This document shows positions 57,839 to 59,660 of a stretch of 64,000 nucleotides of DNA, piece after piece. The stretch comes from Fodinibius saliphilus (GTDB lineage: Bacteria; Bacteroidota; Rhodothermia; Balneolales; Balneolaceae). How positions within the stretch are numbered: the stretch's first letter is position 1; each line of letters starts with the position of its first letter. The translations under genes were made by a program, and so were the position numbers. Location of the stretch: the NCBI RefSeq assembly GCF_005869845.1, contig NZ_VAWF01000001.1, positions 1,240,001 through 1,304,000 on the forward strand, read 5' to 3'. The notes beneath the pieces were generated by a model. That model ran no database searches, was not told the DNA's origin, and was given only the letters and a program-made list of their open reading frames with translations.

Positions 57839-58132
57839 ATGAATACAAGTGATCTGGTTAAAGCACTTGCAGATAATTGGGATATGAGCCAAGCCGAAAC
57901 GCGCCGGTTGTTGGATACTATTGTCGAACGGTTAACAGAGAATTTGGCTAATGGTAATACTTTTACAATCCCGGACCTTGGCACTTTTAGATTATCAACA
58001 CGTGGAGAGCGGGAGTCATACAATCCTCATTATGAACAGTATATGAAATTACCGCCCAAAAGAGTTGTTGATTTTTCGCCCAGCAAGGGGTTAAAAGAAG
58101 ATTTAAAACAAGTGGAGTCTGACAATGAGTGA
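57839..58132 (+). CDS. HU-family DNA-binding protein
   Basis: A 97-residue HU/IHF-type protein. It has the HU fold with NTSDLVKALADNWDMSQAET at the start, a short arm region with FTIPDLGTFRLSTRGERESYNPHYEQYMKLPP, and a C-terminal VVDFSPSKGLKEDL instead of the usual 'xFKPGKxLK'. Its stop overlaps the next gene's ATG by 8 bp, so the two HU-like proteins are translationally coupled and may form heterodimers. The gene is preceded by 241 bp that include a T-rich stretch and holds no visible terminator. Confidence 0.85.
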   Translation: MNTSDLVKALADNWDMSQAETRRLLDTIVERLTENLANGNTFTIPDLGTFRLSTRGERESYNPHYEQYMKLPPKRVVDFSPSKGLKEDLKQVESDNE

Positions 58133-59660
58133 GAAAGTAACATTTCAGGAACTCATTGAGTCAATTGCCGAAGAAAGCGATAACACAAAGCAATTTACTC
58201 ACGATTTCCTCAAAGATTTTGTCGATGTCATTAATAACGGTCTTGAACAAGACGGAAATGTAAGCATTGCCGGTTTTGGTAAATTTAAGCTGCGTCATGT
58301 AACAGAACGTGAGGGGTACAATCCCCAAACAGAAGAAAAAATGACCATTCCTGCACATAACAAGGTGGTGTTCAAGCCTTATAAGGGCGTTAGAGAACTC
58401 GTCAATGCACCCTATGCTCATCTAGAATCTGAACTTATTGAGACTGATGAAAGTGAAGATACCACCACAGAACCTACACCTAAGGAAGACGACACTTCTG
58501 AAAAGTCGCCTTCTACCTCAGAAGAATCAACAGAAAAAACGACTGAAGAAAAATATAGAGAAGAAGATCCTTTCGGTTTTGAAGCGATGAGTTCCAAACC
58601 TTCATCAAAATTTTCATTAGAAGAAGGTGAGGAAGTTACTGATGAGGAAGAAGATATTGTGGAATTTAAAGCAGAAACTACCGAAGAACAGCCTGATGAA
58701 TCGGCCGAAGACCTTGAAGAGTTTATAGGAGCAACGCAAGAGGCTGAAGAAATTTCGGAATCACGAGAAAAGTCTGATAAACAACAAGAAGAGATTACAG
58801 CTGAGTCGAATACGTCTGAACCTATTGAAGCCGAAGACAAAGAGGCTGAACCGTCGAACAAGCAAATAGAGGAATCTCCTTTTGCGCCTATGAGCACAAC
58901 ATCAGATGAAGAATCTACTGATTCAGATGATCAGGAAACACAAAAGGACGATCGTCGGGCATTTGATCGGAAACTTCCCGATCGTAAAAGTAGCTCATCT
59001 CTACCTTTGGTAGTAGCGGCAATTTCGATTTTGGTGTTATTAGCTGTTGGGGCTTGGTATTTTGGGATGTTTTCAACAAATAATCCTTCTCAGCTAGCTA
59101 GCCAAAAAAATATATCATCAGCCAAAGCGAACCTACAACAGGGGCCTAATCAAGAAACACCTTCTCAAAAATCATCTACAAACAACAGACAACAATCTCA
59201 AAAAACCAACAGTCAAAAACAGTCGGCACAAAACCAAACGACAAGCAACAAATCTCAACAAGCAACGAATACAAACTCATCAGCTTCACAGAAAAGAGAA
59301 CAGCACGCTATTACTAAAGGGCAGACCCTTTGGAGTATAGCTGAAGACAAGTATGGCAACCCACGGCTCTGGCCTTGGATATACGGTAATAACGGATCAC
59401 TAAATGATCCGGACCTTATTATTGCCGGTAGTTCTCTTGCTGTACCCCTACCCTCGGGACCTCGGAATAACTTAACGTCTTCCGATTCGGTCGGTGTTGC
59501 CAAAGGTTTTCTATCTACCTACCAGTGGTATAAAAAACAGGATTCTCCGAAAGCTAAGAATCATTTGTGGGGAGCTAAAGTATACCATAGTAACATTAAG
59601 AACCTGGCTGACATCCCAATTGATGAAGCTGACCTTTCATACGCTAATAAAGCCCAATAA
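58125..59660 (+). CDS. HU-domain protein with membrane helix and periplasmic LysM domain
   Basis: A 511-residue protein with an unusual domain chain: HU-like DNA-binding domain (about 1-93), a long acidic Glu/Ser/Thr-rich region (about 95-280), a basic patch and a single membrane helix (about 293-316), a Gln/Ser/Asn-rich linker (about 318-390) and a LysM peptidoglycan-binding domain (about 394-443, HAITKGQTLWSIAEDKYGN), then a C-terminal helix-rich tail. The topology predicts the HU part in the cytoplasm and LysM outside, which would tether DNA to the cell wall. It overlaps the HU gene by 8 bp. Related HU-SPOR/LysM fusions occur in Bacteroidota, but the role is unproven. Confidence 0.8.
   Translation: MSEKVTFQELIESIAEESDNTKQFTHDFLKDFVDVINNGLEQDGNVSIAGFGKFKLRHVTEREGYNPQTEEKMTIPAHNKVVFKPYKGVRELVNAPYAHLESELIETDESEDTTTEPTPKEDDTSEKSPSTSEESTEKTTEEKYREEDPFGFEAMSSKPSSKFSLEEGEEVTDEEEDIVEFKAETTEEQPDESAEDLEEFIGATQEAEEISESREKSDKQQEEITAESNTSEPIEAEDKEAEPSNKQIEESPFAPMSTTSDEESTDSDDQETQKDDRRAFDRKLPDRKSSSSLPLVVAAISILVLLAVGAWYFGMFSTNNPSQLASQKNISSAKANLQQGPNQETPSQKSSTNNRQQSQKTNSQKQSAQNQTTSNKSQQATNTNSSASQKREQHAITKGQTLWSIAEDKYGNPRLWPWIYGNNGSLNDPDLIIAGSSLAVPLPSGPRNNLTSSDSVGVAKGFLSTYQWYKKQDSPKAKNHLWGAKVYHSNIKNLADIPIDEADLSYANKAQ

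Follow-up and report, generated by a model that had tools for sequence, protein, structure and literature searches.

Results

Two overlapping genes at the locus

The window, by which we mean the whole stretch of 64,000 nucleotides of Fodinibius saliphilus DNA that was analysed, carries two overlapping genes on the forward strand. The first gene (57839..58132, + strand) encodes HU-A, a stand-alone HU protein of 97 amino acids that matches PF00216 (E 6.9e-22, 77.9 bits with a cut-off of 22.4) and that is predicted, from this match, its arm tip and its adjacency to HU-B, to be the DNA-binding half of a pair. The second open reading frame (58125-59660, + strand) encodes a fusion protein of 511 amino acids, HU-B/TM/LysM. 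According to the ORF coordinates, the HU-A stop and the HU-B start share an overlap of 8 bp (ATGAGTGA, 58125..58132, + strand). A first-pass annotation of this DNA had described an HU/TM/LysM fusion coupled through 8 bp to a stand-alone HU protein, and both ORFs and their overlap were confirmed. The fusion that it had put forward as the unit of interest stands, but is incomplete: the unit is a two-protein cassette of HU-A and HU-B/TM/LysM that extends beyond the family Balneolaceae. An 8-bp overlap was observed in 27 of 30 extracted loci. The offset between the genes is the same as in the window for 42 of the 70 pairs that share a contig, while the spacing of the others ranges from 3 bp less to 37 bp more.

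Genes flanking the cassette differ between lineages. In the window these are an aconitase-like gene (identified by eye) and a Dabb gene, and at locus L095 genes for a MoxR-like ATPase and a RimO-like radical SAM protein. The Dabb gene (PF07876; 59738-60058, + strand) lies 77 bp downstream of the fusion and is co-oriented with it. Several relatives have a similar ORF behind the fusion, and the neighbours are different in other lineages.

A chance fusion of reading frames was considered and rejected, as the architecture is conserved both within the family and in a second order and dN of the domains is low. Routine cutting of the fusion into two parts was likewise rejected. Separation of the HU and LysM parts, the case that the first-pass annotation had set against its own reading, was found only as a frame change in the draft locus L017. 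In this draft genome (G037), HU/TM and LysM lie in different frames, for which a sequencing error or a natural separation are both possible.

Domain architecture of the fusion protein

The fusion consists, in this order, of an HU domain, an acidic linker, a membrane helix, a Q/S/N-rich linker, a LysM domain and a helical tail. We modelled it with AlphaFold2 from an alignment of 21 sequences (A1), resulting in a mean pLDDT of 61.7 and a pTM of 0.36. The HU-B domain with its full beta-arm EREGYNPQTEEKMTIP covers residues 1-96 (58125..58412, + strand), as delimited by Pfam, conservation in A1 and Foldseek. Residues 7-94 match PF00216 with an E of 2.9e-25 and 88.7 bits (cut-off 22.4), and G64, P67, T69, I75 and P76 are invariant in 21/21 rows of A1. 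AlphaFold2 places an HU fold at 7-97, with block mean pLDDT up to 89. The top Foldseek match in the PDB is the Anabaena HU-DNA structure 1p71, and the best matches are HU and IHF structures, among them several DNA complexes (HU-DNA and IHF-DNA included). A profile of HU-A (A6) also matches HU/IHF chains in the PDB.

The HU domain is followed by an acidic disordered linker at residues about 100-285 (58422..58979, + strand), which is predicted to be cytoplasmic and in which D+E make up 37% of the 173 residues counted. A single membrane helix at residues about 292-319 (58998..59081, + strand) was identified by hydropathy and AlphaFold2: the hydrophobic segment 292-310 has a Kyte-Doolittle value of 2.55, with no second segment above 1.6, and the modelled helix spans 293-319. 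Behind it lies a Q/S/N-rich disordered linker, predicted to be periplasmic (59082..59288, + strand), with a dN of 0.48 (see below). In the model, residues 106-292 and 320-386 nearly all have pLDDT <50. The LysM domain occupies residues about 389-443 (59289..59453, + strand), and a C-terminal helical module residues 446-511 (59460..59657, + strand), with pLDDT of about 91-96 over 451-510. The Balneolaceae rows of A1 contain this tail, in some genera in a shortened form, and it is shorter or absent in the other order. By eye, the helical module (window 59460-59657) looks like a TPR-like hairpin in some genera. The parts proposed by the first-pass annotation (HU at 1-93, acidic linker, membrane helix at 293-316 and Gln/Ser/Asn linker) agree with Pfam, hydropathy and AlphaFold2; all parts that it named were recovered, and the helical tail was missing from its list.

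By sequence, LysM is the weakest part of the fusion. No Pfam match to PF01476 (LysM) was obtained at E ≤ 1 for the whole fusion protein, and the C-terminal piece alone gave a partial match of 15.4 bits, below the Pfam cut-off of 20.9. At E ≤ 0.1, LysM was matched in 3/10 members of the family. Residues 381-441 match an NCBIfam LysM protein model with an E of 2.5e-7, yet with only 31 bits compared to an equivalog cut-off of 134. The nearest LysM in the PDB by sequence is that of TsaP (6ve2, 3jc8) with an E of 0.0011, where chance matches to antibodies begin at 0.015. AlphaFold2 shows a beta-alpha-alpha-beta element over 391-440 with a mean pLDDT of at least 90 per block, and a biosensor of the LysM protein Kbp ranks 47 among the best 50 Foldseek PDB matches. 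The domain thus shows the LysM fold and sequence kinship while scoring below the Pfam cut-off, and the LysM that had been annotated at 394-443 held, at about 389-443, through fold, NCBIfam and TsaP, though weak by sequence. We infer that this part binds peptidoglycan.

Membrane topology

Topology was assessed by hydropathy and charge counts. The window fusion carries 7 K+R residues in the 20 residues before the helix and 1 after it. Across both lineages, K+R before the helix exceed those after it in 39/44 fusions (20-residue flanks); the bias fails in 5/44, namely in two Balneolaceae fusions and in three of the 11 fusions that belong to the other order. When judged by this hydropathy measure, a second hydrophobic segment is absent from all 44 fusions. 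Because the excess of K+R precedes the helix, an N-in, C-out orientation is favoured, which supports HU inside and LysM outside. The inverse orientation, with HU outside and LysM inside, was rejected, as the charge bias opposes it and no signal peptide was seen by eye.

Distribution of the cassette and co-occurrence of its two genes

The fusion is present in 74/92 Balneolaceae genomes, three of the 74 being cut by contig ends. It was counted by a gap in the scores, with the best E at 9e-25 or better in 74 genomes and at 7e-13 or worse in the other 18. In these 18, the match positions printed cover HU only, or LysM only in G015. At least 90% completeness applies to 11 of the 18 genomes lacking the cassette, four of which belong to the genus of the window. 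For the genome of the window, one full-length fusion was found among the matches listed. In one of the cut fusions (G071), the LysM part alone is visible. Altogether, 4/12 genomes of the genus (G011, G012, G015 and G016) are without the HU/LysM cassette; for G011, G012 and G015, matches of the HU/SPOR profile that cover the HU part were printed.

A profile of HU-A found this protein in 71/92 family genomes at E ≤ 1e-14, and in 55/66 genomes of good quality. In 70 cases HU-A and the fusion share contig and strand and are no more than 60 bp apart; the seventy-first pair (G062) is split into pieces that each run to a contig end. Three fusions are without a detected HU-A: G027 and G071 run into contig ends, and in G078 the upstream HU was missed by the profile. 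HU-A is therefore directly upstream in 71/71 family fusions not cut by a contig end. In contrast, it was not found at E ≤ 1e-14 in any of the 18 family genomes that lack the fusion. A Fisher test of this co-occurrence gives p 2e-16, a value that ignores shared ancestry and is descriptive only. HU-A is a co-inherited partner of the HU-B fusion.

Among 36 genomes from the remaining families of the order, the matches listed span the HU part (best E 3.2e-21), with one reading through a stop as far as position 130, and a single genome is without a match; diverged fusions in these families could escape the fusion profile. A search of 395 genomes of the phylum with the Balneolaceae profile gave mostly HU-only matches outside the family, together with three long ORFs (G428, G331 and G324). 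A profile of these three ORFs matched 16/119 genomes of the order of G331, which we guess to be Bacteroidales; this count includes the three query genomes and some partial matches. We parsed 11 of 12 loci from this order (all except L111), three of the 11 being the query loci. Each of the 11 has a membrane segment and an HU gene just upstream, with a junction that overlaps by 4-11 bp in 8 and leaves a small gap in 3. The LysM pattern was detected by script in 6/11, and the other 5 were judged by eye. The check suggested by the first-pass annotation, a search for HU plus LysM architectures in relatives, thus yielded the fusion in most of the family and in a further order.

Phylogeny and sequence conservation

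A tree of 62 HU domains was calculated from 99 columns, in which 28/59 inner branches are well supported. The cassette HU-B domains of both lineages form one clade (98/98), as do those of HU-A (95/94). For HU-A, the two lineages are separate (98/93 and 95/87). For HU-B, the sequences of the other order group on a single branch (94/95, narrowly short of the threshold for good support), next to which the Balneolaceae rows are unresolved. Because the pair occurs in another order and each subunit is one clade, the cassette looks old and co-inherited. The simplest reading of the tree would be one old cassette that was inherited as a pair; transfer between lineages is possible.

In comparison with F. 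halophilus (L008), dN is 0.044 for HU-B, 0.047 for LysM and 0.054 for HU-A. The corresponding values are 0.30 for the acidic linker, 0.16 for the membrane segment, 0.48 for the Q/S/N linker and 0.10 for the tail. No ratios are quoted, since several parts have a high dS and no dS value could be computed for LysM.

DNA-binding features of the HU pair

In HU and IHF, a proline at the tip of the beta-arm intercalates into DNA. Both HU-A and HU-B of the window carry a proline at this position, the arm tip of HU-A reading YNPHY. We surveyed the arms of 25 pairs, 14 from Balneolaceae and 11 from the other order. The tip proline of HU-A is present in 25/25 sampled rows. In HU-B it is found in 14/14 Balneolaceae and in 0/11 of the other order, where V (10) or E (1) takes its place. 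The mean net charge of HU-A in the other order is +6.7. HU-A and HU-B of Balneolaceae have a mean net charge of about -1, with a positive arm region; the canonical HU of the genome has 0. Outside the 25 sampled pairs, the cassette of G078 (L122, reverse strand 1493-2876) has altered arms in both subunits and keeps the pair and the 8-bp overlap, which makes it a natural test of whether the arm is necessary.

We read HU-A as the probably more constant DNA-facing half of the pair. Since the arm is altered in some members, not every one of them can be presumed to bind DNA, and the presence of an HU domain is no guarantee of this activity across this group. The DNA-binding role that had been assigned to the fused HU domain fits Balneolaceae; among the loci sampled from the other order, it is the free HU-A that retains the tip proline and not the fused HU-B. 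We infer that HU-A and HU-B may form a DNA-binding heterodimer.

A second HU module in the same genome

On contig C2 of the same genome, a short HU-like ORF of 66 amino acids (L005:1286-1486, + strand; PF00216 4.5e-7) precedes a gene for an HU/TM/SPOR protein of 360 amino acids (L103:7640-8722, + strand) in which a membrane segment lies between HU (2.7e-7) and SPOR (2e-10). Directly behind it come exbB/tolQ-, exbD/tolR- and tonB-like genes with matches to MotA_ExbB, ExbD and TonB_C, and FtsK is encoded about 3.7 kb upstream of the module. HU2 of this sister SPOR module is armless in 5/5 cases. The HU/SPOR protein scores 21.9 bits against PF18175 (cut-off 35), and PF18174 (HU-CCDC81_bac_1) gave no match in this genome (G000). 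Short HUs of relatives match PF18174 at E ≤ 0.001 in 4/38 genomes, none of them over the cut-off, whereas elsewhere in the phylum the cut-off is exceeded in 18/118 genomes. An order-wide HU/SPOR search matched 124/128 genomes, many by SPOR alone, so that this number is not a count of modules.

From 20 loci, nine usable chains were obtained, each with two HU-like units in one chain (HU2 assigned by eye). Eight of the nine have a clear hydrophobic segment and most, except L091 and L092, end by eye in a SPOR-like part. We regard the HU/SPOR pair of the window genome as a probable split form of the HU-CCDC81_bac/SPOR kind. The presence of two HU-like units before one membrane segment in several Bacteroidota chains is expected if such pairs work together.

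Discussion

Proposed function and alternative explanations

We propose, with a probability of roughly 0.55, that an HU-A/HU-B heterodimer tethers nucleoid DNA at the envelope via the membrane helix and LysM. HU-A and HU-B would form an IHF/HU-like heterodimer that sits on DNA through the beta-arms. The single transmembrane helix of HU-B would hold the heterodimer at the cytoplasmic membrane, its LysM would bind periplasmic peptidoglycan, and the long acidic linker could be a flexible spacer by which the DNA head is kept off the membrane. The cassette would tether or position the nucleoid at the envelope, likely aiding chromosome organisation or segregation, and would be dispensable in some species. 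The topology and the DNA-to-wall link suggested by the first-pass annotation agree with the architecture, the charge bias, the conservation and the analogy with known systems; binding to DNA and to the wall are the predicted steps of this link. On the other hand, the score of LysM below the Pfam cut-off, the failure of the charge bias in 5/44 fusions, the varied neighbours and the 18/92 genomes without a cassette count against a tether, as do the absence of the tip proline from HU-B in the other order, the arms of G078, the armless sister HU2 and the net charge of about -1.

These last four features also speak for a different role, in which the HU pair is a dimerisation or protein-interaction module and the wall-bound fusion a scaffold that recruits proteins inside the cell, with DNA binding being incidental or lost. 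We consider such a scaffold rather unlikely, since few parts of the fusion are as conserved as the arm block of HU-B, the proline of HU-A is retained in every sampled row and HU-A of the other order is strongly basic. A function in division, similar to HU/SPOR, would couple the last steps of segregation to constriction rather than act as a general tether. The position of the sister module, close behind ftsK and just before the exbB/tolQ-, exbD/tolR- and tonB-like genes, would be in line with this, but no division gene lies beside the LysM cassette in the two places inspected (window and L095). Moreover, we know of no septum specificity of LysM, unlike SPOR, and overall a division-stage factor appears unlikely to us. 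It is also conceivable that, at the membrane, the pair targets DNA that is invading or of a particular kind (plasmid, phage or uptake intermediates) rather than the resident chromosome in general. Expanded HU clades were reportedly proposed to recognise invasive DNA by Burroughs et al. 2017, and the incomplete distribution of the cassette, with losses inside genera, would suit this function. However, PADLOC gave no match for HU-B and one weak match for HU-A (E 0.0056), the genome of the window has a single full-length fusion among the matches listed, and dN is low in HU, LysM and HU-A. We therefore regard recognition of invading DNA as improbable.

Returning to the tether of nucleoid DNA, a more specific version can be put forward tentatively and as a whole. 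Here the cassette would be a dedicated mechanical link between chromosome and wall in which HU-A reads and bends the DNA and HU-B is mainly the half anchored in membrane and wall. The HU/SPOR module beside the Tol-like genes would be a septal coupler, giving these bacteria two parallel trans-envelope couplers of DNA to peptidoglycan. The pair would then represent an ancient IHF-like clamp whose fused subunit can lose the intercalating proline while the partner keeps it. To our knowledge, the placement of the chromosome with respect to the envelope is little understood in Bacteroidota and related bacteria. If the tether is true, the cassette would connect DNA directly with peptidoglycan through protein and offer a two-gene system for testing wall-anchored nucleoid organisation. 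HU-A and HU-B would clearly exemplify a division of labour between the subunits of a histone-like heterodimer.

Comparison with known systems

The HU-CCDC81_bac/SPOR proteins (PF18174, PF18175, SPOR) share with the cassette two HU-type domains, one membrane helix and an outer peptidoglycan-binding domain. Burroughs et al. 2017 are said to have predicted a role in chromosome partition for these proteins. They carry both HUs in one chain, with an armless HU2, and end in SPOR, whereas the cassette has separate genes for full-armed HU-A and HU-B and ends in LysM. By Pfam, the cut-offs of PF18174 and PF18175 are not reached by the cassette, with 18 bits for HU-B and 31.1 bits for HU-A against PF18175 (cut-off 35), and SPOR is absent.

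With IHF and HU heterodimers, the pair has in common two paralogous HU-fold subunits and, in the sampled Balneolaceae, an arm-tip proline in both. IHF and HU heterodimers are soluble and lack a membrane or wall domain, which distinguishes them from the cassette. The scores against the NCBIfam IHF-alpha equivalog (56.4 bits for HU-B and 50.5 for HU-A) lie below its cut-off of 111. TsaP, whose LysM is the nearest in the PDB, is a pilus-associated LysM protein; it belongs to the type IV pilus and is unlinked to DNA. According to the abstract of PMC8233713, the mycobacterial Rv3852 is a nucleoid-associated protein anchored by a membrane helix, and its loss disturbs nascent peptidoglycan synthesis. 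Rv3852 thus shows that membrane anchoring and an effect on wall synthesis can come together in a nucleoid protein. Its helix is located at the C-terminal end, the protein is described as distinct from other NAPs, and this abstract names no wall-binding domain (PMC8233713).

The nearest functional model is HubP/FimV. As described in excerpts of PMC12918733, the LysM of FimV binds peptidoglycan and its cytoplasmic part is acidic and disordered; HubP localises oriC in Vibrio and Shewanella, and FimV of P. putida is without effect on segregation. A periplasmic LysM, a membrane region and a long acidic, disordered cytoplasmic region would, as far as these excerpts go, be common to HubP/FimV and the cassette if the locations predicted for the latter hold. 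The order of the parts is reversed, and the cytoplasmic end is FimV (TPR) in HubP/FimV and HU in the fusion. No FimV or TPR domain was matched in the fusion by Pfam and NCBIfam at E ≤ 1. The cassette would thus resemble a mirror image of HubP/FimV with a DNA-binding head of its own.

Judged by titles and the starts of abstracts, no HU/LysM fusion was among the matches listed from the full-text literature, a collection that most subscription journals lie outside. The arrangement of HU, membrane helix and wall domain is known for SPOR, and its combination of LysM with a free HU partner is not previously described in the literature listed. What is added here is the pairing, the spread and the likely age of the cassette formed by HU-A and HU-B/TM/LysM.
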